Shown piece after piece: positions 15,856 through 35,547 of a stretch of 62,870 nucleotides of DNA. This stretch comes from Oceanospirillaceae bacterium (GTDB lineage Bacteria; Pseudomonadota; Gammaproteobacteria; Pseudomonadales; Balneatricaceae). The stretch lies in assembly GCA_013373085.1 (NCBI GenBank), contig JABXIM010000002.1, forward strand, positions 1 through 62,870, written 5' to 3'. A program made the translations under genes and the position numbers. The notes under the pieces are model-generated. The model did not search any database, was not told the origin of the DNA, and saw nothing but the letters and a program-made list of their open reading frames with translations. Numbering within the stretch: position 1 is the stretch's first letter; each line of letters begins with the position of its first letter.

Positions 15856-16797
15856 ATGGACGCGCTAGGGGCCAATCCGGACAAGATATCGGTGTCAGAA
15901 ATCTGCATTATCAGTGACGGCAAACCGGGACATCTCAACCAGTCGCGCGGTCTGGCGGAGGCGCTGCGGCGCCGTCGTCCCGGGATAGGGGTGCGCGAAT
16001 GCTCGCCGCTCGATCGTATAGGCGCGTTACGTACCTGGCTCAGCGGGCAGCTGTCGCCGGGCGTACTGGACGGCGCACCGGACGCGCCTCCTGCTCTGCT
16101 GGTCGGGGCCGGTCACGCCACGCACGCCACGCTGCTGGCCTTGAAGCGGGCCTGGCGAAGGCCTGCCGTCGTGCTGATGAAACCCTCGCTGCCGCTTGGC
16201 TGCTTCGATCTGTGCCTGATGCCGCAGCATGACAACCCGCCCGAGCGCGACAATGTGATCGCCACCCGGGGCGCGCTGAACCTGATGCAGCCGGGACGTA
16301 AACAGGCGGACCTGGGCCTGATCCTGATCGGCGGACCGTCTCGCCACAGCGGTTGGGACGAGTCGGCGCTGCTGACACAGCTCGAGCGCATTCTGGCCTC
16401 GGGTGACCGACGCTGGCGCATGACCAGCTCGAGGCGTACGCCGGCGTCGACCGAACGCTTGCTGGCGGCCCTGCCCGGGGTCGACTTCGTGCCGGCCAGT
16501 GCAACCGGTCGTGACTGGCTGCCGGCTCAGCTGGCCGCTGCTGAGACCTGCTGGGTGACTGAAGACAGTGTGTCGATGGTGTACGAGGCGCTGAGCGCCG
16601 GCTGCGGCGTGGGCATCCTGTCGGTGCCCCAGAATCGCGACAATCGTCTGCAGCGGGGACTGCAGCAGTTGGCGGAGAAGGGGCTGGTGACAGCCTTCGC
16701 TGACTGGCGCGGAGACGCGCTGGCCCCGCCGGCCACCGGTTTCGACGAGGCGGGCCGCTGCGCCGAGCTGATACTGGCGCGCGGCTGGCTGGATTGA
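15856..16797 (+). CDS. ELM1/GtrOC1-type putative glycosyltransferase (mitochondrial fission ELM1 family)
   Basis: This 313-residue protein begins with ICIISDGKPGHLNQSRGLAEAL, the hallmark of this family. LLVGAGHATHATLLALKRAW, the phosphate-binding-like LILIGGPSRHSGWDES, and TCWVTEDSVSMVYEALSAG follow. The fold is GT-B-like, and bacterial members sit in LPS core loci. In Acinetobacter the homologous gene gtrOC1 also lies next to ilvE. The acceptor and donor are not known from sequence. The start at ATG 15856 has no good ribosome site; GTG 15892 is an alternative. It is the only plus-strand gene at this end and meets a minus-strand operon 13 bases after its stop. Confidence 0.8.
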   Translation: MDALGANPDKISVSEICIISDGKPGHLNQSRGLAEALRRRRPGIGVRECSPLDRIGALRTWLSGQLSPGVLDGAPDAPPALLVGAGHATHATLLALKRAWRRPAVVLMKPSLPLGCFDLCLMPQHDNPPERDNVIATRGALNLMQPGRKQADLGLILIGGPSRHSGWDESALLTQLERILASGDRRWRMTSSRRTPASTERLLAALPGVDFVPASATGRDWLPAQLAAAETCWVTEDSVSMVYEALSAGCGVGILSVPQNRDNRLQRGLQQLAEKGLVTAFADWRGDALAPPATGFDEAGRCAELILARGWLD

Positions 16798-16810
16798 CGC
16801 CGGTGCGGAC

Positions 16811-17857
16811 TCAGTCGCGGCGGATCCGGTGGTAGAACTCGTTGTACTGCTCGACGATACGCGCCTTGCTGTAGCCGTTGGCGTATACCTCGCTGGCGCC
16901 TTCGATCAGACGCTGGCGCAGCTCGTCGCTTTTCAGTACCGAGTCGATCGCTTTCGCCAGTGCAGCCGCATCGTCGACCGGGGTGATCAGGCCGCTGACG
17001 CCATCGGTGATCGCCTCGCCCGGTCCCTGGGAGTTGGTGGCGACAATCGGGCATCGGTGCGCCCAGGATTCCATCACGATCGATCCCAGACCCTCGTGCC
17101 GCGACGGGCAGACAAACAGGTCCGCTGTGCGCATCAGTGCCGTGACATCGGTGCGCCAGCCGAGGAAGCGTACCCGTGACTCCAGTCCCAGTTTCCGGCA
17201 CAGGGCTTTCAGGTTCTGCTCCTCCGGGCCGGAGCCGGCAAGCCAGAGGGTCACGCCCGGCAGTTCGGCAAGGCTGTGCAGCAGTACATCGAAGGCTTTG
17301 TTGACGTGCAGCCGTCCGGCGGTCAGGATCAGCGGCTTGTCCACCGGGGTGTCGAAACTGTCGCGGGGCAGCGGCGTCACCTCGCGCTCGTCGGCGAAAT
17401 TGGGAATGTGCACCACTCGCTCGGCCGGGAAGCCGCCATCGATCATGTGCTTGCAGATCCCCTTGCTGATGCCGACCCAGTAGTCGGCGTGACTGTAGTA
17501 TTTCAGCTTGTAGTAGTGCCCGAGCCGGTTGACCAGTACATAGCGGCTCGAATGCGGGGTATAGATGCTGGCTCGTCCCATCCAGGTCATGACGATTTCG
17601 GGTGCGTAGTCCAGCAGCGCCTTGCGGTAGTGGTGACGATCGATCATGTCCACCGGGGAGCCGAAACGAAAGCCCTGGGTGTTGACGCCGGCCTGGCGCA
17701 GCGAGTCGATGCGGTGGGCATGATCGCGGATAAATGCCTTAACCTCCAGCTCCGGATGCTCGTGCAGTCCGGACACCAGTCGGACAAAGAAATTTTCCGC
17801 GCCGCCCTGTGCGGCTCCTGCCAATACTTGAGCAATGCGGATCGGTGAGTCTGTCAT
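16811..17857 (-). CDS. GT4-family glycosyltransferase (GGAENFF type)
   Basis: This 348-residue GT-B protein begins RIAQVLAGAAQGGAENFFVRL, with the glycine-rich loop typical of GT4 enzymes. The C-terminal nucleotide-sugar site is LILTAGRLHVNKAFDVLLHS, then LFVCPSRHEGLGSIVMESWA, an E-x7-E-type motif. It lacks membrane segments and probably works at the inner face of the membrane on the lipid A-core. It is last in a tight four-gene operon (20788 to 16811), starting four bases after the YrbL-like gene. It resembles the gene at 25322-26386 (SxAxAGAETYF and the same domain order), so the two are probably paralogues adding different residues. Confidence 0.88.
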   Translation of the reverse strand: MTDSPIRIAQVLAGAAQGGAENFFVRLVSGLHEHPELEVKAFIRDHAHRIDSLRQAGVNTQGFRFGSPVDMIDRHHYRKALLDYAPEIVMTWMGRASIYTPHSSRYVLVNRLGHYYKLKYYSHADYWVGISKGICKHMIDGGFPAERVVHIPNFADEREVTPLPRDSFDTPVDKPLILTAGRLHVNKAFDVLLHSLAELPGVTLWLAGSGPEEQNLKALCRKLGLESRVRFLGWRTDVTALMRTADLFVCPSRHEGLGSIVMESWAHRCPIVATNSQGPGEAITDGVSGLITPVDDAAALAKAIDSVLKSDELRQRLIEGASEVYANGYSKARIVEQYNEFYHRIRRD

Positions 17858-17861
17858 ATTT

Positions 17862-18569
17862 TCAGCCTTGGGATTCCGGGGAGGTTGAGCGGGGGCGTGC
17901 TGTGGCCATGCCGTGATTGCCGGGCTTTTCGCCACGCGCCTTTTTCGCCAGCGTCTGTTCGATTCGGTGGCGCAGGTTGGCGATCTTGCGGTCCACCTTG
18001 CGCTCTCGCAGGGCTGCCGGCAGCCAGTTGAAAGGCAGGATATTGGGGCTGCCGAGCCCGTCGATCACCACCAGCCGACAGATCCGGCCGCTCTCGTCTC
18101 GCTGTACCAAAATGTTATGCATCAAAAGGTCCCGTGACGGGATCTGCAGTTCTCGCCAGCGCGCGCAGAAACGCTCGACGGCGTCGCGACAGTCGGGAGT
18201 ATAGCCTTCGAACCAAAGGTGGGCCTTGAGCGTCTGCGAGATGGCGCCATCGGCATCCCGAACCAGTTCCAGCACCAGACCCGGGCCGAGATCCGTGTCC
18301 TCGAAGCCGAAGCAGCGGCTGACGTGCTCGAAGGCAGCTTCGCCGAGATTGCGCGCGAGGCTGCTGATGACCTCGAACTCCTCGCGATTGTCATCGAAGC
18401 GGCTCAGCGGCAGCAGCGTCTTGGGAAAGCCTTTCTTGCGTCGCAGGTCCTCCAGGGGGAAGTCCGGCCGGCGTACCTTGATGCAGCGTTGCGGGTCTTG
18501 CGGATGCACGAAGCAGAGCCGGTGGCCGCCCTGCGCGAAGGGCTTTTCTGTTTTCAGCGCCAGTGTCAT
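17862..18569 (-). CDS. YrbL-like putative small-molecule or sugar kinase
   Basis: This 235-residue protein resembles YrbL, a protein-kinase-fold family of unknown substrate named for its PhoP control in enterics. PFAQGGHRLCFVHPQDPQRCIKV carries the probable ATP lysine. SRDLLMHNILVQRDESG fits a catalytic loop, and RLVVIDGLGSPN fits the metal-binding loop, with D-G-L replacing D-F-G. The C-terminal 25 residues are basic. The gene overlaps its upstream neighbour by four bases (ATGA). In core-LPS loci such kinases may phosphorylate inner-core sugars, as WaaP does; that role is inference. A PhoP-like system at 1.6 kb makes PhoP control worth testing. Confidence 0.75.
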   Translation of the reverse strand: MTLALKTEKPFAQGGHRLCFVHPQDPQRCIKVRRPDFPLEDLRRKKGFPKTLLPLSRFDDNREEFEVISSLARNLGEAAFEHVSRCFGFEDTDLGPGLVLELVRDADGAISQTLKAHLWFEGYTPDCRDAVERFCARWRELQIPSRDLLMHNILVQRDESGRICRLVVIDGLGSPNILPFNWLPAALRERKVDRKIANLRHRIEQTLAKKARGEKPGNHGMATARPRSTSPESQG

Positions 18570-19612
18570 TTCAGGGTGCCGTCCAGGTTGATGTCCTGGG
18601 CCCAGCAATAGGGATGGCTGAAGGGGATCTGCAGGCCGGCTTCGAGGATGTACTGGGCATAGAGAGTCGAGTTGATCTCGCGGTGGAAGAAATCCCGCGC
18701 GGCTCCGGCCCAGGCACGGCGCTTGTCGTCATCGGCGTGGAATTCGCGGATTTTTGCGATCAGGTCCTCTTCCTCGTTGAAGTAAACCAGTGTTTCCGGC
18801 GGTAGAAGCTCGTCGAAGCGGCCGGAATCATGGGTGAACTGCAGAATACCGTTGCCGGCGAGCTGGGCCATGCGCGCCGAGGAGTACCAGTGCAGCCCCT
18901 CCTGGCGGTTGAAGTTAAGTCCCATCTTGCTCGACTGCAGCGCGCGGTCATAGGCGCGACCCCAAACCGGCGGCTCGTTGAAGCTGCCGAAGGTTTTGAA
19001 ATTCATGATCGGGTCCAGCTGCTCCTTCATGCGGCCGACCATTTCCAGGCGCTTGGTGAAGTTCTGACTGTTGCTGCAGAAGATCAGGTCGATAGGCAGC
19101 TCGGATGTGGGACGGGTCGAGTTGTCGAAACATTCGACAGACGGCTCAACCGGATTCGGCATATGGTAGACGCGGGCTCTCGAGCCCTCGAACTGGGTCA
19201 GCTCGCGACGCCCTGTGGAAACGAAAACGGCGTCGGTCACTTCGGCCCGGTGCTTGATGCGCTCGACATTGGATGGCACGAACAGCGGATCGTTATTGCA
19301 GTGAACGATGGCGCAGTTGGGCATCATGCCGCGGATCGCTTCCAGCGTCTCGTTGCTGATCATGTCGCAGTGACCGGCAATCACCAGGTCCGGTTCGAAC
19401 GCCTCAACTGTCTCCAGCAGGCGCCGGTTGGCCTTTTTTTTGCCCAAGTCGCGAATGCCCAGCGGTGCTTCAAACGCCGCCACGTCACGGTCGCTGAATG
19501 ATTGTACCAGGTGATCATTCTTGATCAGACCATAGGTAAGTTTCTGTGCCCAGCTGACGCGCGTGTGGCCGTAACGTTTCAGTTGCAGGTAGGCGACGTG
19601 GAGTACTCTCAT
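18566..19612 (-). CDS. CgeB-like glycosyltransferase
   Basis: This 348-residue protein shows RVLHVAYLQLKRYGHTRVSWAQ at the N-terminus and a pattern of CgeB/DUF3880-like GT-B enzymes: IVHCNNDPLFVPSN, DAVFVSTGRRELTQF, DLIFCSNSQNFTKR, MGLNFNRQEGLHWYSSARMA and YFNEEEDLIAKIREF. The last two form the C-terminal site that recognises the sugar nucleotide. No membrane segment is present. It lies in the four-gene minus-strand operon that also encodes the YrbL-like kinase and two GT4 enzymes. Its specificity cannot be read from the sequence. Confidence 0.8.
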   Translation of the reverse strand: MRVLHVAYLQLKRYGHTRVSWAQKLTYGLIKNDHLVQSFSDRDVAAFEAPLGIRDLGKKKANRRLLETVEAFEPDLVIAGHCDMISNETLEAIRGMMPNCAIVHCNNDPLFVPSNVERIKHRAEVTDAVFVSTGRRELTQFEGSRARVYHMPNPVEPSVECFDNSTRPTSELPIDLIFCSNSQNFTKRLEMVGRMKEQLDPIMNFKTFGSFNEPPVWGRAYDRALQSSKMGLNFNRQEGLHWYSSARMAQLAGNGILQFTHDSGRFDELLPPETLVYFNEEEDLIAKIREFHADDDKRRAWAGAARDFFHREINSTLYAQYILEAGLQIPFSHPYCWAQDINLDGTLK

Positions 19613-19666
19613 TCTGATCTGACCCTGTTAGGTGATGTTCAAGCGCACCTGTGTGTCCGGCATGAC

Positions 19667-20788
19667 TCAGCGCTGGTTCAACAGCCGGCGGTAAACGTCC
19701 AGCGTCGCTTCTGCCTGGTGCTGCAGGTAGAACTGATCCGGGAGCCGGATATCGGCGTTGTCGCGACGTAACAGTTCGTCGGCGCGCCGGGCGAATGCAT
19801 TCACATCGTCCGCCTCGACCAGCCCGTCAGGAAAGGCCGCGTGCAGCGACTCGCTCGCGCCCCCGCGATCATACGCGATGACAGGACATCCGCAAGCCAG
19901 AGCTTCGGGCACCGTGCGGCCGAAGGGTTCCGCCTTGTTCGACAGGTGGCAGCACAGGTCGGCCAGACGATAGAACGACTGGATATCGGATCGGTGACCG
20001 ACGAAAGTGACCTGATCGTCCAATCCCAGCGCATGGCGCTTGTCGAGCAACTCCTGCAGGTAGTGTTGCTTGTTCGCTTCGGCTTCGCCAATCACGATGC
20101 CGTGGCAGTCCTGACGCAGTTCGCTCAAGCGCTGCATCACGTCGAGGAAGGCTTCCTGCCCTTTCCAGCGGGACAGGCGACCCGGCATCACCAGCAGGCG
20201 CTTGCCCCTGAACTGCGGATAGTCACTGAACAGCTGATCACGCCAGGCGCTGTCATCCCACTCCTGTTTGAAGATAGCAGGGTCGAGACCCCGGTAGATG
20301 CGAGTGATACGTTCTTCCGGTACCCGGTAGTTGTGCCGGATATAGTCGTGCACGCAGTCGGAAATGGCGATAATGTGCTCGGCCTTTGTCATAATGGCGC
20401 TGTAAGCGTTGACCGAGTACATGCCATGCACAGTACTGACCAGATGAGGGCGCGAATGCGGGGGCATCTTGCGCCAGGCCAGCCAGACGATCCAGGCCGG
20501 CGCGCGGGAGCGCACATGCACGATATCCGGTTTCAGCTCGGTCAGCAGCCGGCGCATCGGCCGCACCTGGGCCAGCGAGCGCAGCGACTTGCGATGTACC
20601 GGCATCTGGATATGGCGCGAGCCCTCGGCCTCGAGTCGTTCGATCTGGCGGCCGCCGTTGGAGATCACGATCGATTCGTGCCCCCGGGCGACCAGTTCCC
20701 GGGCAAACTCGACGGTGCCGCGCTCGACGCCGCCGGCGTCCAGGGCTGGGAGGATCTGGATGACTTTCAACGAAGTTCCGGCTTCCAT
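19667..20788 (-). CDS. GT4-family LPS/core glycosyltransferase
   Basis: This 373-residue GT-B enzyme opens with KVIQILPALDAGGVERGTVEFAREL. DIVHVRSRAPAWIVWLAW, RITRIYRGLDPAIF, LLVMPGRLSRWKGQEAFLDV and NKAEPFGRTVPEALACGCPVIAYDRGG follow. The E-x7-E donor site (EPFGRTVPEAL) is intact. It resembles glycosyltransferases of the LPS core operons of pseudomonads and alphaproteobacteria. It is first in the minus-strand operon ending at 16811. The operon's promoter must lie in 20789-20912, which it shares with the divergent acyltransferase gene. Confidence 0.88.
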   Translation of the reverse strand: MEAGTSLKVIQILPALDAGGVERGTVEFARELVARGHESIVISNGGRQIERLEAEGSRHIQMPVHRKSLRSLAQVRPMRRLLTELKPDIVHVRSRAPAWIVWLAWRKMPPHSRPHLVSTVHGMYSVNAYSAIMTKAEHIIAISDCVHDYIRHNYRVPEERITRIYRGLDPAIFKQEWDDSAWRDQLFSDYPQFRGKRLLVMPGRLSRWKGQEAFLDVMQRLSELRQDCHGIVIGEAEANKQHYLQELLDKRHALGLDDQVTFVGHRSDIQSFYRLADLCCHLSNKAEPFGRTVPEALACGCPVIAYDRGGASESLHAAFPDGLVEADDVNAFARRADELLRRDNADIRLPDQFYLQHQAEATLDVYRRLLNQR

Positions 20789-20912
20789 TTAGTTCTGTTA
20801 GAGGGCAGTATGCGATTCTGGTGCGTCAGAATAACAAATAATGCCAACCCTGTATCCTGCCGGAAGTGCCTGATGACCACCGCGCCACAAACGGAATCAT
20901 TGTGACCCCGAC

Positions 20913-21467
20913 ATGAAAATTCTCGAGAAAATCAGAAAAGCCGGCCTAGTACTCTCAGTGCTGATGAATAACCGCCTGAAAGGAAATTTGGCGGTTTGTG
21001 AGCTGTCTTCCTCCTGCCGATTACAGAAGGGTGTTACGGTTAGCTTCGGGAAGAAGGGTGAGTTAAAACTGCGCGACAACGTAAAAGTAAAGACTGGTGC
21101 CGTCTTTGAGTGCCTGGGTATGATCGATATTGGAGCCGGATCTGTCGTAGGCGTTTATAACTGGTTTCAGGGAGGTGGCAGTATCACTTTTGGCAGGAAT
21201 GTAATTGTCGGGTCACACTGTAATTTTATTGCCTCGACACATTCCTTTAATGAGAAGTATACGGATTTCAAAAAACAGCCATTGGTCAAAGGCGATATCG
21301 AAATCGGTGACAATGTCTGGATAGGCAGTCACGTGACGATTTTGAATAATGTGAAAATTGGCGATAATGTCATAATCGGTGCGCACAGTTTGGTCAATGC
21401 CGATATCGAGAGCAACTCGATAGCGGTGGGTACGCCCGCACGGGTGATGAAGAAAGTGTGGGAGTGA
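20913..21467 (+). CDS. Hexapeptide-repeat O-acetyltransferase (WbbJ/WcaF type)
   Basis: This 184-residue left-handed beta-helix acyltransferase shows repeating hexapeptides: GDIEIGDNVWIGSHVTI, NNVKIGDNVIIGAHSLV and SNSIAVGTPARVMKKV. The conserved ASTHSFNE segment carries the probable catalytic histidine. Such enzymes acetylate sugar residues of surface glycans using acetyl-CoA. Bases here are visibly AT-richer than in neighbouring genes, and the codon choice (many AAA, AAT, GTA) differs too. This suggests that this gene and the next were acquired by transfer. The gene is 4 bases upstream of the KpsS-like gene. Confidence 0.87.
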   Translation: MKILEKIRKAGLVLSVLMNNRLKGNLAVCELSSSCRLQKGVTVSFGKKGELKLRDNVKVKTGAVFECLGMIDIGAGSVVGVYNWFQGGGSITFGRNVIVGSHCNFIASTHSFNEKYTDFKKQPLVKGDIEIGDNVWIGSHVTILNNVKIGDNVIIGAHSLVNADIESNSIAVGTPARVMKKVWE

Positions 21468-21471
21468 GGCC

Positions 21472-22524
21472 TTGAGTAAGAAGATACTGTTTACAGTCGC
21501 GGCCTATGTTACAGACCGTCCGGGACGATGGAAGCATGTTGCGAAAGCTTATCTCATGCTGGCGAAAGGACTGGCGAAGTTGGGTTATGACAGTTGTTTC
21601 TACGTTCATCCAGAAGCAGTGCATGGACGTATGAAACAAGGCCGGTATATACTGACCAGTGACGAGGAATTGCCGCTACTACTGAAGCGTGAAAAGCCGG
21701 ATTTTTGTTTTATCTGGGGCGGTAGGACGGAAGCTGATCGAAAAACCGCACAGCAGGTAAAAGAATATAGCTCTCGTTGCAGGATTATCTATTCTGAAGC
21801 CGGTTGGTTCCCTCAGCGCGATCGGATTTATTTCGACCTAGAAGGCACCAATGCGGATGCTAGTTTCAGCAAGCGCCTGACGGGTGAAGATAACATCCAG
21901 GATCGGGAACGGGCGAATTTTATTCGAATGCGAAACCGCATAGTCAGACGTGATCTTGGGCTGAATCCATTTGCCCGGGTTAGTCCGTTCAGAATAGAGC
22001 CGCCAGATATCAGAAAAAAGATACTGGTACCACTTCAGGATGAGCAGGACACCAATATTATTTGCTCATCTCCCTTTAAAACAATGCGGGCCTTCGTTGA
22101 GTATTTGTCGGCAACCTATCCGCAGTACCGATTTGTGGTAAGGCAGCACCCACGGGCCCCGGTAAGCAACCTTCCTGCTCTCGATAATGTTGAATATCAG
22201 GATAAGAGTGTGGACCTGTTTCGGCAGTTCGATGACATTGGTTTGGTAATCGGAATTAATTCTACCGTGCTGTTACAGGCGGCGATGCACAATAAGACGG
22301 TCATTGCGCTGGGCGAGGGCATTGCATCGGCCGGAGGCTGTGTCTATCCGATGGATGTTGACAATCCCCTGCCTGAGTTTGACTGTCCCCTGGTCGATAC
22401 CGACGCCGCCGAACGGCGGCTGGCGTTTCTGCTGGTGGAAAGACAGATGAATCGCAGAAAACTGGCTAGCAAACGCTATCTGCAGCAGTCCTATTTGTAT
22501 GAGTTGATGACTGACGATGCTTGA
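21472..22524 (+). CDS. Capsule_synth/KpsS-like glycosyltransferase
   Basis: This 350-residue protein starts at TTG (21472) with SKKILFTVAAYVTDRPGRW. It has the C-terminal block of capsule polysaccharide synthesis proteins: YPQYRFVVRQHPRAPV and LVIGINSTVLLQAAMHNKTVIALGEG. Family members (KpsS/KpsC, GT99 and relatives) transfer Kdo or similar sugars to phospholipids or core acceptors. IIYSEAGWFPQRDRIYFD fits the substrate cleft. It is AT-rich like the preceding gene and overlaps the following GT2 gene by eight bases, so the three form an operon. A Kdo or Kdo-like donor is inference from distant resemblance. Confidence 0.72.
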   Translation: MSKKILFTVAAYVTDRPGRWKHVAKAYLMLAKGLAKLGYDSCFYVHPEAVHGRMKQGRYILTSDEELPLLLKREKPDFCFIWGGRTEADRKTAQQVKEYSSRCRIIYSEAGWFPQRDRIYFDLEGTNADASFSKRLTGEDNIQDRERANFIRMRNRIVRRDLGLNPFARVSPFRIEPPDIRKKILVPLQDEQDTNIICSSPFKTMRAFVEYLSATYPQYRFVVRQHPRAPVSNLPALDNVEYQDKSVDLFRQFDDIGLVIGINSTVLLQAAMHNKTVIALGEGIASAGGCVYPMDVDNPLPEFDCPLVDTDAAERRLAFLLVERQMNRRKLASKRYLQQSYLYELMTDDA

Positions 22525-23374
22525 TTTGACAATTATTATCGTCTCCTACAACAGCGCTGCGGTCATTATCGATTGCCTGAGCGGGCTTATTGAGGCATTG
22601 CCACATCAGATCCGGGTCGTCGATAACGCCAGCCGACCTGGCGATGTCGAGCTGCTCGAAAAGCGCTTTCCACAACTCGAAATTATGCGCCTGGATCACA
22701 ATCTCGGCTATGGGCGGGCGGCTAATGTGGCGCTGAATGCGGTGCAGAGTCGTTATGCTCTGCTGATCAACCCGGATATCCTAGTCGATGCGCCGCGGCT
22801 GGCAGAGTTGCTGCAGCAGGCGGCCAGCTATCCAGAGGCGGCCATCTTCGGCCCGGCGACCAGCCGCAAGCATCGTCAGATTGTCGAGTCTGCTGAAGAA
22901 AAGGAGGCTATCAGTGGCTCCTGTATGCTATTCGACATGGAGAAGTTGCGCCCGCTGGGGGGCTTCGACGAGAATATCTTCCTGTTTTCCGAAGAGGTTG
23001 ACCTTTGTTGGCGCGCACGAGAAGCGGGGCATAAGGTACTGTTGCTGCCGCGGATATATGTCGAGCACCTGGCGGGGCGCTCATCGGGCAGTTCAGATGC
23101 GGTCGAGTACATGAAAAATTGGCACTTCGGCTGGTCCCGTTCCTATTTCTACCGCAAGCACAGTCGCGATCGCGGAAAGCACGCGCTGAGACGACGTTTC
23201 TGGTTGTACAGCTGGAAAGCACTCATCGCCCGCAGGCATTATGATAAGGTGAAGTTCCGAGCGATCCGCGATGGCATACGGGCTTTCCAGGCCGGGGAGG
23301 CCGCCTTTCTTGCCGATGGCCGGACGCCGCAGGCCTCCCCGGATAGCCCGGAAAACCCCTACGCCGGTTCTTGA
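22517..23374 (+). CDS. GT2-family (rhamnosyltransferase-like) glycosyltransferase
   Basis: This 285-residue GT-A enzyme begins LTIIIVSYNSAAVIIDCL. VVDNASRPGDVELLEKRF, LDHNLGYGRAANVALN and ALLINPDILVDAPRLAEL follow, with the DxD-equivalent in NPDI. GSCMLFDMEKLRPLGGFDENIFLFSEEVD has the ED-type catalytic base region. This is the WbbL/rhamnosyltransferase pattern. Since a dTDP-rhamnose pathway lies at 28.8-32.3 kb, rhamnose is the best guess for its donor. Its 3' end overlaps the convergent GT-D gene by 16 bases. Confidence 0.88.
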   Translation: MLDLTIIIVSYNSAAVIIDCLSGLIEALPHQIRVVDNASRPGDVELLEKRFPQLEIMRLDHNLGYGRAANVALNAVQSRYALLINPDILVDAPRLAELLQQAASYPEAAIFGPATSRKHRQIVESAEEKEAISGSCMLFDMEKLRPLGGFDENIFLFSEEVDLCWRAREAGHKVLLLPRIYVEHLAGRSSGSSDAVEYMKNWHFGWSRSYFYRKHSRDRGKHALRRRFWLYSWKALIARRHYDKVKFRAIRDGIRAFQAGEAAFLADGRTPQASPDSPENPYAGS

Positions 23375-25296: not shown

Positions 25297-25321
25297 GTGA
25301 ACCTTCCTGTTGAAAAGACGC

Positions 25322-27405: not shown

Positions 27406-27545
27406 AACGTCCGCCTTGAGTTGGCCGGCTATTTTAAGGGCTCCCCGAATAAACGGTAAACCCTGAGGGCCAGCCCGCCGCTACTTTGCCCAAGGATACT
27501 CGCGCCGTCTTTCAGTGCGTTTGCGCGTGGGGTTTCGGTAACAGG

Positions 27546-27573: not shown

Positions 27574-27581
27574 TCATCTGA

Positions 27582-28751
27582 TCAGGCGTCGCCGCCGAAC
27601 AGGTCGCGGGTATACACCTTGGCTTCGACATCACGAATATCATCCGTCATCCGGTTCGCGATGATCAGATCGGATCGGGATTTAAACGCTTCGAGATCGT
27701 TTACCACTTCGGAGTGGTAGAACTCGCCATCCTGCAGTACCGGTTCGTAAACGATAACCTCGACGCCTTTTGCCTTGATGCGTTTCATCACGCCCTGTAT
27801 GGCAGAGGCGCGGAAATTATCGGAGTCGGCTTTCATGACCAGACGGTAGATTCCGACAGTCTTCGGAGCGCGCCGCAGGATCGACTCTGCGATAAAATCC
27901 TTGCGGGTGGTATTCGAATCGACGATCGCGCGGATCAGATTGCTGGGTACATCGGCATAGTTGGCCAGCAGCTGCTTGGTATCCTTGGGCAGGCAGTAGC
28001 CACCGTAGCCGAAGGAGGGGTTGTTGTAGTGGCTGCCGATGCGGGGGTCGAGACCGACGCCCTCGATGATCTGGCGGCTGTCCAGGCCATGGCTTTCGGC
28101 ATAGGTGTCCAGCTCGTTGAAATAGGCGACGCGCATCGCCAGATAGGTGTTGGCGAACAGCTTGATCGCTTCGGCCTCGGTGCTGTCGGTGAACAGTGTC
28201 GGGATATCCTGCTTGATCGCGCCCTGCTGGAGCAGCCCGGCAAAGGTCCTGGCGCGATCGCTACGCTCTCCGACGATGATGCGTGACGGATAGAGGTTGT
28301 CATGCAGAGCCTTGCCTTCGCGCAGGAATTCCGGCGAGAAGATCAGGTTGTCGGTGCCACAGGAGGCCTTCAGTTCCCGGGTGTAACCGACGGGTATGGT
28401 CGACTTGATCACCATGACAGCATGGGGATTGACGGCCATGACATCGTGAATCACGGCCTCCACGCTGGCGGTGTTGAAATAGTTTGTCTGCGGATCGTAA
28501 TCGGTCGGTGTCGCGATGACGACGAAGTCCGCATTCCGGTAGGCTTCATCCTTGTCCAGAGTGGCGCGCAGATTGAGCGTTTTTTCCTGCAGGTACGACT
28601 CTATTTCGGCATCGACGATCGGCGAGTGGCGATTGTTGATCTGGGCGACCTTTTCCTCAACGATATCGACGGCCACGACTTCGTTGTGTTGTGCCAGCAA
28701 TACGGCGTTTGATAGTCCGACATAACCGGTTCCGGCAACTGCGATTTTCAT
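27582..28751 (-). CDS. ugd: UDP-glucose 6-dehydrogenase
   Basis: This 389-residue enzyme oxidises UDP-glucose twice to UDP-glucuronate using NAD. It has the N-terminal Rossmann loop [36 protein letters not shown], and [13 protein letters not shown]. The catalytic cysteine sits in [19 protein letters not shown]. Length matches the short bacterial UgdH type seen in capsule loci. It supplies UDP-GlcA for the epimerase at 24.3 kb. It follows the rml operon on the same strand after an 83-base gap and may be co-transcribed with it. Confidence 0.95.
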
Positions 28752-28834
28752 GGTTGATCTGAGCCTGTTGATAACCTTGTTCTGTGAATAATAACAGCAC
28801 TGCGCTCTCTGCGTGCTGCCAGCGTAAGCTGCCT

Positions 28835-29716
28835 TCAGTCCGTCTTAAGCTCTTTCAATACGGAGCGAAGTTCTACTCGCCAATCCGGCTGAGAAATACC
28901 TAGGGCTAGCTTTATTTTCGAACAATCCAGTTCCGAGTTGGCCGGGCGTTTGGCGGTCGTCGGATACTGCTCGGTCGTGATGGGAGCGACGCGTGGTGGT
29001 GCTGTCAGCAGGCCCTCCTGTGTGGCCTGTGCAAAAACTTCCACTGCAAACTCATTCCAGCTGCAGGCGGGAGCGCCGCTAAAATGATAAATACCCCAGG
29101 GCAAACTGGCATTTTCCGCGTAGTGTCGAGCAAGTCGCCACAGTGCTTCTGCAATACTGCGTGCGGAGGTAGGTCCGCCGCGTTGATCTGCGACGACGCT
29201 CAGTTCATCTCGCTCTCGGCCGAGCCGCAGCATCGTTTTGACAAAATTATTGCCCGAGGCTCCGAATACCCAACTGGTGCGCAGGATCATATGACGACTG
29301 CAATGCTCGGCGAGCACTCGTTCACCTGCCAGCTTGCTGGCCCCGTAGACGCTTTTCGGCGCAGGGCTGTCGCTCTCTGAATAAGGGCCTCTCGACGTTC
29401 CGGGGAACACATAGTCGGTGGACAGGTGAAATATGGGGATTTCTGCTTTCTCGGCGGCCTGGGCAAGGTACAGCACAGCTTCCTGGTTTACCGCATAGGC
29501 TCGGTCGCTGTCGCTTTCTGCCTTGTCGACGGCCGTGTAAGCGGCGGCGTTGATGATGAGTTCCGGCCTCAAGCGCTCCAGCATGCGAGCGACTTCGTCC
29601 GCATTGCTGATGTCGAGATCGGCGGATCCCATTCCTGTGGTTTCGAATACTGCAGGCGATTGCCGCAGCAGCTCGCTGCCTACCTGGCCTTTTGCGCCGG
29701 TGATCAGGACTCGCAT
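28835..29716 (-). CDS. rfbD: dTDP-4-dehydrorhamnose reductase
   Basis: This 293-residue SDR enzyme performs the last step of dTDP-L-rhamnose synthesis. The NAD(P) loop is [55 protein letters not shown] and the Y-x3-K site [11 protein letters not shown] are typical, as is [19 protein letters not shown]. The ATG at 29716 lies two bases after the rfbC stop codon; a longer reading into rfbC is less likely. It is fourth in the rfbBACD order (on the minus strand). Confidence 0.95.
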
Positions 29717-29718
29717 GC

Positions 29719-30261
29719 TCAGTGGTTCCCCGCTAGCAGTTCGCGCAATGTTGGGTTGATCTGGTCTTTTTCGGAGAGCCTCGGTGATTCGATCGGCCAT
29801 TCGATGCCGACATCGGGATCGTTCCAGACCAGCCCGCCTTCATCGTCCGGGTGGTAATAGTCAGTGCACTTGTACTGGAAGTCGGCTACTTCGCTCAGCA
29901 CGCAAAAACCGTGGGCATATCCCGGCGGAACCCAGAGCTGACGATGATTTTCATCGTTCAATTCGACACCGACAAACTGCCCGCAGGTTGCCGATTCAGG
30001 ATTGATATCGACGGCTACATCGTAGACGGCGCCGCGGCTGACGCTAACCAGTTTTCCCTGGGGGCGAGTCTTCTGGAAATGGAGACCGCGAAGTACGCCA
30101 TGTTGCGAGCGCGAATGGTTGTCCTGAACGAAGGGCAGTCCAATGCCGGCCTCGCGATAACGCTCGGCCTGAAAGCTTTCGAGAAAAAAACCACGATGGT
30201 CGCCGAAGACCTTGGGTTCGATGATCAGGACGCCGGGCAGTGCGGTTTCAATAACCTTCAT
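29719..30261 (-). CDS. rfbC: dTDP-4-dehydrorhamnose 3,5-epimerase
   Basis: This 180-residue cupin epimerase inverts two carbons of the keto-sugar intermediate of dTDP-rhamnose synthesis. It has [18 protein letters not shown], then [16 protein letters not shown] with the catalytic histidine, [18 protein letters not shown] and [20 protein letters not shown]. Length is exactly that of the RmlC family. Its start overlaps the rfbA stop by four bases, so translation is coupled. Confidence 0.96.
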
Positions 30262-31136
30262 TTGCTGTTCACCTGGCCGAGCAACCTTTTTAGATACTGG
30301 CCGTAGCCGGTCTTTCCAAGCGCTTCGGCCTGTTTCGATAGCTGCTGTTCGGTTAACCAGCCCTGGTTGAAGGCAATTTCCTCAAGACAAGCGACTTTCA
30401 GTCCTTGCCGGGCTTCGATGGTCTGAACGAAGTGACTGGCCTCCATCAGCGAATCGTGGGTGCCGGTATCGAGCCAGGCGAAACCGCGGCCAAACATGCA
30501 GACGTGCAGGTGGTCACGCTCGAGGTAAGCGTTGTTGACATCGGTGATCTCCAGCTCGCCCCGAGCAGACGGCTTGACCTGCTTCGCAATCTCTACAACA
30601 GAATTGTCGTAAAAATAGAGGCCGGTGACTGCATAGTTGGATTTCGGATGCTGCGGCTTTTCTTCGATCGATACCGCTTTGCCACTCGCATCGAACTCCA
30701 CTACGCCGAAACGCTCGGGGTCGGAGACATGGTAGCCGAATACAGTGGCGCCTGTTTCGCGGGCCGCCGCCTGCTTCAACATGGCGCTGAAGCCGTAGCC
30801 GTAAAAGATATTGTCGCCCAGAATCAGGCACACGTTGCTATCGCCAATAAATTCCTCGCCAATCAGGAAAGCCTGCGCCAGACCATCCGGCGATGGCTGT
30901 TCGGCATAGGAGAGCTGGATGCCAAAGTCGCTGCCGTCACCCAGCAGTTTGCGGAAACTGGGTAGGTCTTCGGGTGTGGAAATAACCAGTACGTCACGGA
31001 TCCCTGCGAGCATCAGCACAGACAGCGGATAGTAGATCATCGGCTTGTCGTAGATTGGCAGCAGTTGCTTGGATACGCCGCGGGTAATCGGGTGCAGCCT
31101 GGTGCCGGAGCCCCCGGCCAGAATTATTCCTTTCAT
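30258..31136 (-). CDS. rfbA: Glucose-1-phosphate thymidylyltransferase
   Basis: This 292-residue nucleotidyltransferase makes dTDP-glucose. It begins [20 protein letters not shown] with the G-x-G-T-R nucleotide loop. [29 protein letters not shown] with the metal aspartate, and [20 protein letters not shown] follow. It is usually inhibited by dTDP-rhamnose, a property of the family. An 82-base gap with a small hairpin separates it from rfbB upstream. Confidence 0.97.
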
Positions 31137-31218
31137 TTGCTCAGGCCTCCTACGTCACTGAGGTTGCGTCCTGTGGGGCAGGACGCTGAAATAGTCGATG
31201 CAGAGTCGTATGGGTCGG

Positions 31219-32301
31219 TTAGCCAATGCGGTTCAGCCGGTAGTCGCCGTTAAGCACCCGCTGCCACCAGTCGCGGTTGTCCAGGTACCACTGAACCGTC
31301 TTGCGTATCCCACTCTCGAAGGTTTCTTCGGGAACCCAGCCCAGCTCCCGCTCGACTTTCGAGGCATCGATGGCGTAGCGTCGATCGTGCCCGGGCCTGT
31401 CCCGAACGAAGGTGATCAGATCACTATAACGTGCGAGGTTCCCGGGCTTTTCCGGAGCAAGCTCTTCGAGCAGGTCGCAGAGGGTTTCGACCACTTCCAG
31501 GTTGCGTTTTTCATTGTGCCCGCCGATGTTATAGGTTTCGCCGACTCGGCCTTCGGTGGCGACCTTCACCAGTGCCCGTGCATGGTCCTCGACGTAGAGC
31601 CAGTCGCGAATCTGGGCACCATCTCCGTAGACCGGTAGTGGCTTTCCGGCCAGGGCGTTGAGGATCATGTGCGGAATCAGCTTTTCCGGAAAATGGTAGG
31701 GACCGTAGTTATTGGAGCAGTTGGTGATCAGTGTCGGGAGCCCGTAGGTTCGCTGCCAGGCCCGAACGAGGTGATCGGAGCTCGCCTTGGACGCGGAGTA
31801 GGGAGAGCTCGGCGCATACGGGGTTGTTTCGGTGAACAGGTCACTGGTGCTTTCGAGGTCGCCGTAGACTTCATCGGTGGAAATATGGTGAAAGCGAAAG
31901 GATGCCTGTGCCGGCTCCGGAAGCCCGCTCCAGTAGTGTCGGGCGGCTTCGAGCAGATTGTAAGTGCCGATGATATTGGTCTGCATGAAGTCCGCAGGTC
32001 CATCGATCGAACGGTCGACGTGCGACTCTGCTGCCAGGTGCATGATCGTCGAGGGCTCGAACTCGGCGATGATGTCGTCCAGCGCAGTCCGGTCGCGGAT
32101 ATCCGCCCGGTAGAAACGATAACGCGGAGAGTCGCTGACTGGCGCCAGAGACTCGAGATTGCCGGCGTAGGTAAGCGCATCGACATTCACCACCTCGTGC
32201 GAGGTATGTGAAATCAGGTGGCGAATAACGGCTGAGCCGATGAAGCCCGCCCCTCCGGTTACTAAAATCTTGTGGTTCAACGGAAGCCTCTGATTGTTCA
32301 A
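31219..32301 (-). CDS. rfbB: dTDP-glucose 4,6-dehydratase
   Basis: This 360-residue SDR enzyme converts dTDP-glucose to the 4-keto-6-deoxy form. It has the NAD loop [20 protein letters not shown], the D-E active-site motif [14 protein letters not shown], and the YSASK site (Y-x3-K). [20 protein letters not shown] and [20 protein letters not shown] complete the family pattern. It is the first gene of the rml cluster and is divergent from msbA across a 210-base gap. Its substrate pathway ends in dTDP-L-rhamnose, presumably used by the GT2 enzyme at 22.5 kb. Confidence 0.96.
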
Positions 32302-32473
32302 ACCAGGAAAGGCCGGAATCCTGAGCCAAGGCGCTGAAGATTAACAATCAAGGACCGCAGCTCCTGCCCGGTTATCCGGCTACGGCGTAAGCCTATCCGA
32401 AGCATGGGGTTTTTTCGACCTGAAGCGTCGCTCCCAGGCCGGTCGATGTCACCCCGAGTAGTACCCATCCATG

Positions 32474-32479
32474 TATAAT
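32474..32479 (+). promoter_or_regulatory. Probable sigma-70 -10 box for msbA
   Basis: A perfect TATAAT lies 32 bases before the msbA ATG in a GC-rich setting. No good -35 hexamer is visible 16-18 bases upstream, so an activator or a weak -35 is implied. The rest of the rfbB-msbA gap (32302-32511) holds no gene. Confidence 0.45.
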
Positions 32480-32511
32480 GTGCGCCGAACTAAGGAAAAG
32501 CACGGTCTTTG

Positions 32512-34272
32512 ATGAATAAACAACAGGTACCGGCAATACAGTCCAGCGGTTGGATGCTTTACAAGCGTCTGCTGGTTTACGTCAAACCTTACTGGTTCGC
32601 TTTTTTGGTCAGTATCGGCGCGTTCGGTTTGTTCGGCGCGTCGCAGGCGCTGTCGGCCAAGTGGCTCGAGCATGTGGTCAATGCGATCGAACAGGGTGCG
32701 CTCGATAAGCGGGGCCTTCTGGCGCTGGCGGTACTGGGTATCTTTGCCATGCGCGGGGTCGGCACCTTCATCGGCAACTACAGTATCAGCCATGTCGCGC
32801 GTCAGGTGGTGCACAATCTGCGTACCGACCTGTTCGACCGCATGCTGACGTTGCCCAGCAGCTATTACCACCAGAGCTCCAGCGGCGAACTGCTGGCCAA
32901 ATTGACGTATAACGTCGAGCAGGTAACGGGGGCCGTGACCAACGCGGTCAAGACGGCTCTGCGGGAGGGGCTGACGGTAATTGGACTGTTCGGGTACCTG
33001 TTCTATCTCAACTGGAAACTGACCCTGATCTTCGTGGCGGCTGCGCCCTTTATCGCGGTCGTGGTGTCGGTGGCTTCGAAACGCATGCGCAAGCTGAGCC
33101 GCAAGCTGCAGCAGTCGGTCGGCGACATTACCAGTGCGGCGTCGGAAACCATCAAGGGTTACCAGATCGTAAGGATCTTCGGTGGCACCGAGTTCGAGCG
33201 CAATCGTTTTCATGCCGCCAGCGAACGCAATCGCCGCCAGTTTATGAAGATGGTGGTGACACAGTCGCTCAATACACCGACAGTTCAGTTCCTGATTGCG
33301 CTGGCTTTGGCCGGCTTGCTCTACATCGCCATGCACCCCACGGTGATGGGCGGCATGAGCACCGGTGAGTTCGTGGCGTTTCTGACCGCGGCGGGGATGG
33401 TCACCAAGCCGTTGCGGCAGCTCACCGATCTGAGTACCACAGTTCAGAAGGGAATCGCCGCGTCTGAATCGCTGTTTGCGGTGATCGACGAGCCTCCGGA
33501 GCAGGATAACGGCCAACATGCCGTCGAACGCGTCAAGGGCGAGCTCCGCTTCGAGCGTGTCGGTTTCAGTTATCGTGGCGAAGACGAGATCGTGTTGCAC
33601 GACCTCGATCTCGATATAGCGCCGGGCCAGACGGTGGCCCTGGTCGGGCGTTCGGGCAGCGGCAAATCAACCCTTGCGTCGCTGCTGCCGCGTTTCAATG
33701 CCGGCTGGAGCGGGCGGATCCTGCTCGATGGCGTGCCGCTGGAGGACTATCAGCTGGAGAACCTGCGCCAGCAGATAGCGCTGGTGAATCAGCAGGTGGT
33801 GCTGTTCAACGGCACCATCGCCGAGAATATTGCCTACGGTGCCATGGCCAGCTGCAGTGAGGCGCAAATAGGTGCCGCGGCCGAGGCCGCCCACGTAATG
33901 GAGTTCGCCGAGCGATTGCCGCGGGGGCTCAGGACCGAGGTCGGCGAAAGCGGTCTGCTGCTGTCCGGCGGTCAGCGGCAACGCATCGCGATTGCCCGGG
34001 CGATACTCAAGGACGCGCCAATCCTGATTCTCGACGAGGCCACTTCGGCGCTGGATACCGAGTCCGAACGGCATATCCAGGCGGCGCTCGAGCAGGTGAT
34101 GAAGAACCGCACCACTCTGGTGATTGCGCACCGCCTTTCCACCGTCGAGAAGGCCGATCAGATTCTGGTGCTGGATCAGGGACGGATCGTCGAAAAGGGC
34201 ACCCACCGGGAGTTGCTCGAGCAAAACGGCGCTTACGCGGCACTTTACCGGATGCAGTTTGCGGACAGCTGA
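32512..34272 (+). CDS. msbA: Lipid A export ATP-binding/permease
   Basis: This 586-residue ABC half-transporter flips lipid A-core across the inner membrane. Six membrane segments lie in residues about 25-320. The nucleotide domain has Walker A GRSGSGKST, LVNQQVVLFNGTIAENIAYG, the signature LLSGGQRQRIAIARAIL, Walker B ILILDEATSALD and the H-loop VIAHRLST. Length fits MsbA. The start is uncertain: ATG 32512 and TTG 32509 are both far from the nearest AAGGA. waaA follows after three bases, making an export-plus-Kdo-transfer operon. Confidence 0.95.
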   Translation: MNKQQVPAIQSSGWMLYKRLLVYVKPYWFAFLVSIGAFGLFGASQALSAKWLEHVVNAIEQGALDKRGLLALAVLGIFAMRGVGTFIGNYSISHVARQVVHNLRTDLFDRMLTLPSSYYHQSSSGELLAKLTYNVEQVTGAVTNAVKTALREGLTVIGLFGYLFYLNWKLTLIFVAAAPFIAVVVSVASKRMRKLSRKLQQSVGDITSAASETIKGYQIVRIFGGTEFERNRFHAASERNRRQFMKMVVTQSLNTPTVQFLIALALAGLLYIAMHPTVMGGMSTGEFVAFLTAAGMVTKPLRQLTDLSTTVQKGIAASESLFAVIDEPPEQDNGQHAVERVKGELRFERVGFSYRGEDEIVLHDLDLDIAPGQTVALVGRSGSGKSTLASLLPRFNAGWSGRILLDGVPLEDYQLENLRQQIALVNQQVVLFNGTIAENIAYGAMASCSEAQIGAAAEAAHVMEFAERLPRGLRTEVGESGLLLSGGQRQRIAIARAILKDAPILILDEATSALDTESERHIQAALEQVMKNRTTLVIAHRLSTVEKADQILVLDQGRIVEKGTHRELLEQNGAYAALYRMQFADS

Positions 34273-34275
34273 CGG

Positions 34276-35547
34276 ATGCTGCGGGTGATCTACACACTGC
34301 TTTTCTATCTCGCCCTACCGGTGGTGCTGATGCGCCTTTGGTGGCGTGGCCGGCGGGCGCCGGCCTACCGACAGCGCTGGCGCGAGCGTCTCGGGCATGT
34401 CGCGTCCGGACCGGAGGCGCCTCTGTGGATACACGCGGTGTCGGTCGGGGAAACTGTCGCCATCGCACCCCTGGTCGAACTCCTGCTGCGCCGCTGCCCG
34501 GAACAGCCAATCGTGCTGACGACGATGACGCCAACCGGTGCCGAGCGCGCTCGAACACTGTTCGGTGACCGGGTGCGCCATCTCTACTGCCCCTGGGACC
34601 TGCCGCATGCACTGGCGCGCTTTCACCGGCGGATCAGGCCCTGCGCGCTGGTCGTTGTCGAGACCGAACTCTGGCCCAACCTGATCAAAAGCTGTGCCGA
34701 CCGGAATGTGCCGGTACTGATTGCCAATGCCCGGTTGTCGGCCAGGTCGGCCCGCGGATATCGGCGTTTCGGCGCCCTGACAGGGCCAATGCTACAGCGA
34801 CTGCACCTTGTCGCGGCGCAACATGACGCGGATGGTGAGCGCTTCATCGAGCTGGGTCTGCCGCGGGAAAAGCTTCGGGTGACCGGCAGCATCAAGTTCG
34901 ATATCGAGGTAAAAGACGAGTGGCGACAGGGCGGGTTGCGGCTGCGGCAGCGCTGGGGCCGGGAGCGTCCGGTGCTGGTGGCGGGCAGTACCCACGAGGG
35001 TGAGGACAGAATCCTGCTGGAGGTTCTGAAAACCTTGCGCAGGCATCATCCGCAGTTGTTGCTGGTGTTGGTGCCGCGCCATCCCGAACGCTTTGCTACG
35101 GTCTGGCAGCAGTGTCGCGATGCCGGGCTTGCGGTCGCCCGGCACAGTCTGGGAGAGCCCGTTACCAATGAAGTGTCGGTTTATCTCGGCGACACCATGG
35201 GTGAGCTGATGGCCTTCTACGCTGCTGCCGATATCGCCTTCGTCGGCGGCAGTCTTGTACCACGGGGCGGGCACAATCCGCTGGAGCCGGCAGCGTTGGG
35301 CAAACCGGTATTGATGGGGAACGAGGTATTCAATTTCCAATCCATCTGCGACGCCCTCGAAGCCTCGGGGGGGCTGCAGAAGGTGGCCGATACACAACGG
35401 CTGGAGTTGGAACTGGAGAAGCTGCTCTCGGATGAGCATTTGCGCAAAAAGCAGGGCGAGGCTGCGCGGACCTTTGTCGAGCAGAACAGAGGCGCCTTGG
35501 AGCGGCTGTATCAGGAGGTCGATGCAATGATCGGCAGGGCTGAATAA
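34276..35547 (+). CDS. waaA: 3-deoxy-D-manno-octulosonic acid (Kdo) transferase
   Basis: This 423-residue GT30 enzyme attaches Kdo to lipid IVA. An N-terminal membrane anchor is followed by the catalytic-glutamate segment WIHAVSVGETVAIAPLVELL. VVVETELWPNLIKSCADRNV, KFDIEVKDEW, LVAGSTHEGEDRILLEV, YLGDTMGELMAFYAAADIAF and VGGSLVPRGGHNPLEPAALG follow. It is the only clear Kdo transferase here besides the KpsS-like protein. It comes right after msbA, as in Pseudomonas. No Kdo kinase or heptosyltransferase is adjacent. Confidence 0.96.
   Translation: MLRVIYTLLFYLALPVVLMRLWWRGRRAPAYRQRWRERLGHVASGPEAPLWIHAVSVGETVAIAPLVELLLRRCPEQPIVLTTMTPTGAERARTLFGDRVRHLYCPWDLPHALARFHRRIRPCALVVVETELWPNLIKSCADRNVPVLIANARLSARSARGYRRFGALTGPMLQRLHLVAAQHDADGERFIELGLPREKLRVTGSIKFDIEVKDEWRQGGLRLRQRWGRERPVLVAGSTHEGEDRILLEVLKTLRRHHPQLLLVLVPRHPERFATVWQQCRDAGLAVARHSLGEPVTNEVSVYLGDTMGELMAFYAAADIAFVGGSLVPRGGHNPLEPAALGKPVLMGNEVFNFQSICDALEASGGLQKVADTQRLELELEKLLSDEHLRKKQGEAARTFVEQNRGALERLYQEVDAMIGRAE

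Follow-up and report, generated by a model that had tools for sequence, protein, structure and literature searches.

A probable heptose-free LPS-core locus in which an ELM1-family protein at the ilvE junction is proposed to act as KdoT

Kdo and heptose are the constituents generally given for the inner core of LPS, and O-5 of KdoI is the heptose I site in ordinary cores. The core of Acinetobacter is heptose-free. In this genus, gtrOC1 encodes a PF06258 protein, adjoins ilvE and, in the sections of PMC4172580 drawn on here, is the sole gene common to OCL groups A and B. In December 2025, the ELM1 protein encoded at the ilvE junction of Acinetobacter was shown to be KdoT, which transfers a third Kdo residue to position O-5 of KdoI, with a uronic acid added after this step; the R180A mutant of KdoT was impaired and the R179A mutant was not, and a Rickettsia KdoT homologue partly restored an Acinetobacter kdoT mutant (sections of PMC12856342 drawn on here). 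The covered parts of two reviews on marine LPS (PMC4052302 and PMC3210612) give no core structure for the bacterial family analysed here.

The window (the whole 62,870-nucleotide stretch of DNA analysed) contains a 20 kb LPS-core locus between ilvE and msbA-waaA. We consider it probable that this locus is heptose-free, that its ELM1 protein acts as KdoT in place of heptose I transfer and that the genes downstream of ELM1 are exchangeable. The left boundary is ilvE, encoding a branched-chain aminotransferase (14686..15780, −; NF009897 and TIGR01123 above cut-off). The first core-locus gene beside it, at 15847..16797 (+), encodes an ELM1/GtrOC1-family glycosyltransferase, our proposed KdoT; the open reading frame is separated by 66 bases from ilvE, which reaches to 15780, and has an in-frame ATG at 15856. 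Four genes on the − strand form the downstream module, which we call type B: GT4a, a family 4 glycosyltransferase (16811..17935; PF00534), a YrbL-like kinase-like protein (17862..18608; PF10707, 4.5e-34), the glycosyltransferase GT1_2, which is the module marker (18566..19612; PF13524), and the glycosyltransferase GT4b (19667..20788; PF13439 and PF00534; EX7E motif at 287/295). These are followed by genes for a hexapeptide acetyltransferase (20913..21467, +; PF00132), a putative glycosyltransferase with a low GC3 of 0.52 (21472..22524, +; PF05159, 19.7 bits against a cut-off of 20), a GT2 glycosyltransferase (22517..23374, +; PF00535), a GT-D fold glycosyltransferase (23359..24267, −; PF08759, 3.1e-43), a GalE-like sugar-nucleotide epimerase (24310..25365, −; PF01370 and PF16363), the glycosyltransferase GT4c (25322..26386, −; PF00534) and the lipid A acyltransferase LpxL (26470..27405, −; TIGR02207 above cut-off). 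The sugar-nucleotide genes encode the UDP-glucose 6-dehydrogenase Ugd for UDP-GlcA supply (27582..28751, −; TIGR03026 above cut-off; NF011631 at 687.6 bits, under its cut-off of 757), RmlD (28835..29800, −; TIGR01214 above cut-off), RmlC (29719..30261, −; PF00908), RmlA (30258..31136, −; PF00483) and RmlB (31219..32301, −; TIGR01181 above cut-off). MsbA (32509..34272, +; TIGR02203 above cut-off) and, as the right boundary, WaaA, the transferase of the first Kdo residues (34276..35547, +; NF004388 above cut-off), complete the set.

The initial annotation counted eight glycosyltransferase-type proteins, and we arrived at the same number: ELM1 and seven others (GT4a, GT1_2, GT4b, the weak Capsule_synth match just under its cut-off, GT2, GT-D and GT4c). 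Its assignment of UDP-GlcA and dTDP-rhamnose synthesis was borne out by Ugd and RmlABCD. The assignment of UDP-GalA synthesis rests on the epimerase, for which no NCBIfam equivalog reached its cut-off and for which a UDP-uronic acid is possibly the substrate. RmlABCD, a hexapeptide acetyltransferase and genes with low GC3 typify variable surface glycans, as would be expected if this were a capsule or O-antigen locus and the true core genes lay elsewhere. However, lpxL, msbA and waaA are in the locus or bound it, ELM1 occupies the place of waaF/waaC, and none of the locus genes matched a Wzx, Wzy or ligase family. We therefore regard a capsule or O-antigen locus as very improbable.

The family PF01075 (WaaC/WaaF) had no match in the core locus, in the genome of the window or in any of the seven genomes of its genus (this genome and six congeners, two of them single contigs). 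In the same seven genomes, no HldE was above cut-off (the one match in the window's genome scored 32 bits against 345), HldD was represented by many epimerase relatives below cut-off, and GmhA likewise stayed below it (best score 156 bits in the window's genome and 158 in the genus, cut-off 209). Thus, the earlier statement that waaC, waaF and hldE are missing from the locus holds, and heptose genes elsewhere in the genome, which had been named as the refuting test, were not found in the PF01075, HldE and HldD searches. The further statement that no waaG-like gene is present was too strong, because E. coli WaaG matches GT4c at 1.7e-14 and GT4a at 1.6e-12, and these GT4 proteins are therefore distant WaaG relatives. 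It should be mentioned that the assembly consists of 249 contigs and that the protein scoring 156 bits is GmhA-like, so that an ordinary heptose core could have been missed through the unfinished assembly or through divergent enzymes. However, the result was the same in all seven genomes, the single-contig ones included, and of the 99 genomes sampled from the family, 33 matched PF01075 and 31 matched HldE above cut-off, as the E. coli control did for both. Furthermore, the GmhA-like SIS protein is under the GmhA, PRK13936 and DiaA cut-offs and its gene adjoins LppC and YraN, which we take to be the usual place of diaA; it was not counted as a sign of heptose. An overlooked heptose pathway was rejected on these seven genomes as improbable in the extreme, and the core is almost certainly without heptose.

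We then consider what takes the place of heptose. The ELM1 protein matches PF06258 over the full length of the profile (2.3e-65, 221 bits; residues 27-312, profile positions 1-303 of 304); it gave no match to solved structures. The ilvE-ELM1 junction is the same as that in Acinetobacter, as the initial annotation had claimed and as the sections of PMC4172580 used here describe. At residues 195-198 the protein has the SRRT motif of KdoT. The second Arg is kept in all 44 aligned ELM1 homologues and the first in 40, in agreement with the outcomes of the R180A and R179A mutants. Six of the 44 are divergent second copies, five with SRRT and one with SPRT; therefore, the motif marks the family and not the Kdo donor alone. 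Because KdoT of Acinetobacter is encoded at the same junction and the window ELM1 has SRRT, heptose's place is most likely taken by Kdo rather than by uronic acid. The initial annotation had suggested uronic acid in this place; according to the parts of PMC12856342 consulted, KdoT acts on O-5 of KdoI and the uronic acid is added later, and uronic acid itself is probably not the substitute. The related possibility that ELM1 moves a hexose or hexuronic acid straight to Kdo would fit the presence of Ugd and the epimerase in the locus and the breadth of PF06258, a family of which some genomes, and also Acinetobacter OC loci, carry more than a single copy in one locus. We consider it unlikely, given that the assayed family member at the ilvE junction uses CMP-Kdo and given the gene order of the loci described below.

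We fetched 20 ELM1 loci and 12 heptose loci from the window's family. ELM1 adjoins ilvE, at 118-412 bases, in 18 of the 20. In 11 of the 12 heptose loci, a GT9 gene lies 0.2-2.2 kb from ilvE, and 10 of these 11 are WaaF or WaaC homologues, 49-63% identical to those of E. coli. The frame ilvE ... lpxL-msbA ... waaA is common to ELM1-bearing and heptose-bearing members. The initial proposal, in which Pseudomonas-like and Acinetobacter-like ends are joined, was therefore rejected: ELM1 stands where waaF/waaC stand in relatives. A homologue of GT4b (type A) adjoins ELM1, or follows ELM1 and Gna, in 14 of the 20 loci. In six, a TviB/WbpA-type dehydrogenase, the type named for Gna (PMC10936431), is beside ELM1 (all five tested were above cut-off), and the order is ELM1, Gna-type gene, GT4, with a ligase-type gene before GT4 in one. 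This order is as expected if uronic acid comes second, and Gna (UDP-GlcNAc 6-dehydrogenase) is a requirement of the pathway in Acinetobacter. No Gna gene lies in the core locus of the window; TviB-type genes above cut-off are elsewhere in the same genome.

Across the 99 family genomes, ELM1 was found in 53 and HldE above cut-off in 31, and only one genome (G079) has both. Across 244 genomes of the order, ELM1 was found in 65, a number that includes genomes with the long divergent kind alone (for example, all of family f9), and HldE in 134 at E≤1e-60 (129 above cut-off), with both in four (G119, G148, G274 and G294). Fisher values were computed ignoring kinship. Ten families contain ELM1 genomes without HldE as well as HldE genomes without ELM1. 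This near-exclusion across the order, together with the shared place beside ilvE in the family, looks like a new finding. Because 16 of the 99 and 49 of the 244 genomes have neither, a lack of heptose genes does not need ELM1. Moreover, Caulobacter vibrioides, a control outside the order, matches PF06258, PF01075 and HldE; thus, at the widest, the exclusion applies to this order.

The downstream module looks as if it was exchanged beneath a resident ELM1. In genome G031, the trees conflict, with ELM1 resident and GT4b exchanged. GT4a homologues of 64-75% identity are near ELM1 in three families (f24, f29 and f7), and all 28 genomes of the order (244 sampled) with GT1_2 at E≤1e-30 also carry ELM1. 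The kinase-like YrbL gene travels inside this module. To our knowledge, no role of YrbL has been described. In 13 aligned members, the K, N and DG positions are invariant and E is kept in 12. Aligning YrbL in hhalign with WaaY and WaaP of E. coli (P-values 0.68 and 0.011) led nowhere, and matches to solved structures were at chance level only. The WaaP/KdkA family gave just short matches (21.6-27.3 bits, cut-off 21.3) in frames of 461-620 amino acids in six of the seven genus genomes. The idea that uronic acid replaces phosphate is unproven: the WaaP/KdkA matches are short, yet the module holds a kinase-like protein.

We propose the following pathway. WaaA would attach the first Kdo residues to lipid A, and ELM1 would transfer a further Kdo to O-5 of the first Kdo, the hydroxyl that would receive heptose I from WaaC. 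GT4b, in a GnaT-like place, would add the next sugar, probably an acidic one, to the Kdo placed by ELM1. GT1_2, GT4a and the other transferases would extend the chain with uronic acid and rhamnose, and YrbL may act as a kinase on one of the core sugars. Among the family loci, ELM1 sits in the chromosomal place of waaF/waaC with exchangeable genes behind it. For the order as a whole, we lean slightly towards the idea that heptose I from WaaC and the third Kdo from KdoT are alternative occupants of one KdoI hydroxyl, that the order switched between them many times, in the window's family at the same slot, and that modules, including the YrbL-type kinase, were traded between families; the heptose core would then be one of two widespread designs and not a rule with Acinetobacter as its exception. 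If so, heptose-based assumptions about phage receptors, the sensing of ADP-heptose by the innate immune system of hosts and heptose-pathway inhibitors would not hold in roughly one in four genomes of the sample (ELM1 without HldE in 61 of 244), the gene content at the ilvE junction would help to predict the inner-core type, and YrbL would gain a testable function.

The Rickettsia KdoT homologues are likened to the window ELM1 only through their description in the sections of PMC12856342 used here. In the family heptose loci (as in G011 and G015), the order is ilvE, waaF/waaC ... lpxL-msbA-hldE ... waaA, and the frame and flanks are the same as in the window; there, ELM1 and its partner replace waaF/waaC, hldE is absent and the msbA-waaA gap is three bases. 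The A. baumannii OC locus, with KdoT (GtrOC1, A1S_2903) and GnaT (LpsB), likewise has an ELM1-family gene by ilvE. In both, this gene is constant and the genes behind it are variable, the SRRT motif is present, and a GT4 protein is the proposed next step; GtrOC2 and GT1_2 both belong to PF13524. The OC locus extends from ilvE to aspS, whereas the right boundary in the window is msbA-waaA, and a polysaccharide deacetylase match is absent from the window locus. Gna is outside the window locus although it is inside the loci of relatives. Unlike the A. baumannii locus, the window locus holds the GT4 partner, UDP-GlcA supply, YrbL and the rhamnose genes within its own boundaries.

The LPS-core locus, delimited by gene and profile matches in the window, occupies positions 15847-35547. 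Its left end is formed by ilvE (minus strand) and ELM1 (plus strand), the PF06258 gene. A minus-strand block of GT4a, a YrbL-like gene, GT1_2 and GT4b follows, then a plus-strand trio (hexapeptide acetyltransferase, a gene with a weak Capsule_synth match and GT2), a further minus-strand block (GT-D, an epimerase, GT4c, LpxL, Ugd and RmlDCAB) and, on the plus strand, MsbA-WaaA. The trio, also found in genome G031 (L034), comprises an acetyltransferase, a putative transferase and GT2 amid minus-strand genes at 20913-23374. Its third-position GC is low (GC3 of 0.52-0.67 versus 0.76-0.79 from ilvE to GT4b), and it is perhaps a later insertion. The gene list of the initial annotation was correct, including the eight transferase-type proteins. 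Its claim that no waaG-like gene is present was too strong: because E. coli WaaG matches GT4c (~1e-14) and GT4a (~1e-12), the locus does encode WaaG-like proteins in the broad GT4 sense.

No match to PF01075, the WaaC/WaaF heptosyltransferase family, was found across the organism's own whole genome (5.78 Mb in 249 contigs, listed as 100% complete with 3.18% contamination) or in any of the seven genomes of the genus, this one included, two of which are single-contig. HldE, HldD and GmhA were likewise absent over cut-off from these seven genomes; the best HldE score in the own genome was 32 bits against a cut-off of 345. The GmhA-like protein of the genome adjoins LppC and YraN, which we take to be the place of diaA. 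The heptose models work, because the E. coli positive control was detected for both PF01075 and HldE and because genomes of the family score (PF01075 in 33 of 99, HldE over cut-off in 31 of 99). Thus, the heptose-free signature first noticed in the locus is confirmed.

In the same family sample, ELM1 was present in 53 genomes, together with HldE in one (G079), and 16 genomes had neither (Fisher 1e-12, kinship disregarded). Across 244 genomes of the order, ELM1 was present in 65 and HldE at E<=1e-60 in 134 (129 over cut-off), with both in four and neither in 49 (Fisher 4e-22, kinship again disregarded). Ten families (f1, f16, f17, f24, f29, f36, f39, f40, f41 and f47) hold both ELM1-without-HldE and HldE-without-ELM1 genomes. 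This repetition is better evidence for avoidance than Fisher values that ignore kinship. ELM1 and PF01075 occur together in 16 genomes of the order; HldE is missing from 13 of them, and PF01075 is matched just once in 12 of these 13. G079 (L047) keeps ELM1, Gna (UDP-GlcNAc 6-dehydrogenase) and GT4b, has HldE and HldD over cut-off, and gives two divergent matches to PF01075 farther on in that locus (L047 9659-14078); these genes would fit heptose as a later, outer sugar. At ilvE, G274 carries a canonical locus encoding homologues of WaaF, WaaC, WaaG and WaaP; an ELM1-GT4b-GT1_2-YrbL module lies far from it (L094, L095). The cell may combine two designs of core, or the module may serve another glycan. 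Exceptions with ELM1 and HldE also include G119, G148 and G294. Because Caulobacter vibrioides, a control outside the order, has matches for PF06258, PF01075 and HldE, we claim the exclusion for this order only. In G055 (L046), ELM1 lies directly after WaaA and HldE is absent; all eight other genomes sampled from its genus (g16) contain PF01075 and HldE but lack ELM1, which suggests a recent switch.

Of the 20 ELM1 loci fetched from the family, 18 have ELM1 at a distance of 118-412 bases from ilvE, the exceptions being G055 (ELM1 follows WaaA, and the stretch is without ilvE) and G081 (6.5 kb away). In Neptunomonas qingdaonensis the distance is 246 bases. Of the 12 heptose loci fetched from the family, 11 have a PF01075-type gene at 0.2-2.2 kb from ilvE, either as its direct neighbour or separated from it by one gene; the stretch fetched for the remaining locus, L054, does not include ilvE. 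Ten of the 11 genes encode homologues of WaaF or WaaC with 49-63% identity to the E. coli protein; the one in L061 is divergent (20-30%). HldE directly follows MsbA in G011 and G015, at the place where the window's msbA and waaA are three bases apart. Among 17 stretches fetched around an ELM1 gene in other families, the distance to ilvE was 17-120 bases in five (L093, L097, L099, L100, L105), 1-2 kb in L096 and L104 and 4.2 kb in L098; ilvE was not found in nine.

In ordinary cores, heptose I sits at O-5 of the first Kdo. In excerpts of the Acinetobacter baumannii literature, gtrOC1 adjoins ilvE, belongs to PF06258 and is the sole gene common to OCL groups A and B (PMC4172580); its purified product, A1S_2903, is KdoT, a CMP-Kdo transferase forming the KdoIII-(2->5)-KdoI linkage (PMC12856342), after which GlcNAcA is added by GnaT (LpsB, GT4) (PMC12856342; genetics in PMC10936431). 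According to the same KdoT excerpts, the R180A mutant was impaired and R179A was not (PMC12856342). The window ELM1 has SRRT at residues 195-198; its second Arg is kept in 44 of 44 aligned homologues (window ELM1 counted) and its first in 40. Since six divergent second ELM1 copies among the 44 also keep the second Arg, the motif is family-wide. Such copies, ~28-36% identical to the window ELM1, lie within ~7 kb of the first in L032, L035, L036, L039, L045, L099 and L103. Most likely, heptose is replaced by a third Kdo through an ELM1/KdoT-type enzyme in the heptosyltransferase slot. The initial annotation, which proposed that uronic acids replace heptose and phosphate, was right in its observation and partly right in its interpretation; the mechanism is most likely the third Kdo.

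The genes beside ELM1 were also compared. Type-A GT4b homologues (43-48% identical to the window GT4b) directly follow ELM1, often overlapping it, in nine of the 20 family loci, and follow ELM1 and a dehydrogenase in five; in L039, the sixth dehydrogenase locus, an O-antigen-ligase-type gene also precedes GT4b. The remainder are four type-B loci and L046, which is without a type-A homologue. The dehydrogenases stand beside ELM1 in L038, L039, L042, L047, L048 and L049, and all five scored (all but L048) are over cut-off as TviB/WbpA-type UDP-GlcNAc 6-dehydrogenases. KdoT, Gna and GnaT are, in excerpts of PMC10936431, the three proteins that build GlcNAcA-Kdo3-lipid A in E. coli WBB06. By this analogy, the ELM1-Gna-GT4b grouping gives support, separate from the SRRT motif, to a probable KdoT function in the family. 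Among solved structures, the closest to GT4b in sequence is PDB 7mi0 (2e-43), listed under the general name glycosyltransferase. Its source is presumably Rickettsia, and if so the protein would be consistent with a partner of KdoT in that genus.

The window carries a different arrangement, the type-B module (GT4b, GT1_2, YrbL and GT4a). Near ELM1 in families f24, f43, f47, f29 and f7, proteins are 52-78% identical to the window GT4b, GT1_2 and GT4a (GT4a was not recognised near ELM1 in f43) and 43-59% identical to YrbL; ELM1 itself is only 34-39% identical. Family f16 is a looser case. The window ELM1 falls inside its own-family clade (96/96; 22 family rows, one f40 row and one f41 row), and the window GT4b falls outside the type-A clade (100/100) of other family members with f36, f5 and f26. 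The GT4b tree also includes four rows on long branches, taken from heptose loci, which are unlikely to be orthologues. The ELM1 of G031 groups with type-A congeners G002, G044 and G057 (100/100), and its GT4b with the GT4b proteins of the window, G068 and G046 (separated from all others at 98/99); on these trees, G031 appears to show the seam between ELM1 and the exchanged module. Type B occurs in four of the seven genus genomes (G000, G018, G031, G068), and GT1_2 at E<=1e-30 in 28 of the 244 order genomes, all 28 with ELM1. Therefore, from the identities, the tree conflict and the GT1_2 spread, ELM1 is the part that stays constant, and the genes that follow it are exchanged between families.

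Thirteen aligned YrbL-like proteins share an invariant Lys, the Asn of a D/N-x4-N loop and a D-G pair, and 12 of the 13 keep a Glu; we read these positions as putative kinase motifs. When YrbL was compared with E. coli WaaP by profile, the loop aligned as expected, but the match was not significant. The chances that YrbL is the predicted core kinase are about even. Short matches to the WaaP/KdkA family (PF06293), found in six of the seven genus genomes at 21.6-27.3 bits, just over the cut-off of 21.3, sit inside frames of 461-620 amino acids and are read as other kinase-like proteins.

Judging by titles and abstract openings, with subscription journals mostly uncovered, we found no publication on the ELM1/heptose exclusion; on the same basis, none was found that treats KdoT outside Acinetobacter and Rickettsia. 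Subscription journals may contain older core structures of related marine genera, and the JBC KdoT paper describes its own homologue list as nonexhaustive (PMC12856342). A gene for a polysaccharide deacetylase follows ELM1 in L099 and L101, as in Acinetobacter group B pda2 appears to follow gtrOC1, an order inferred from a short ilvE-pda2 product reported in an excerpt of PMC4172580.
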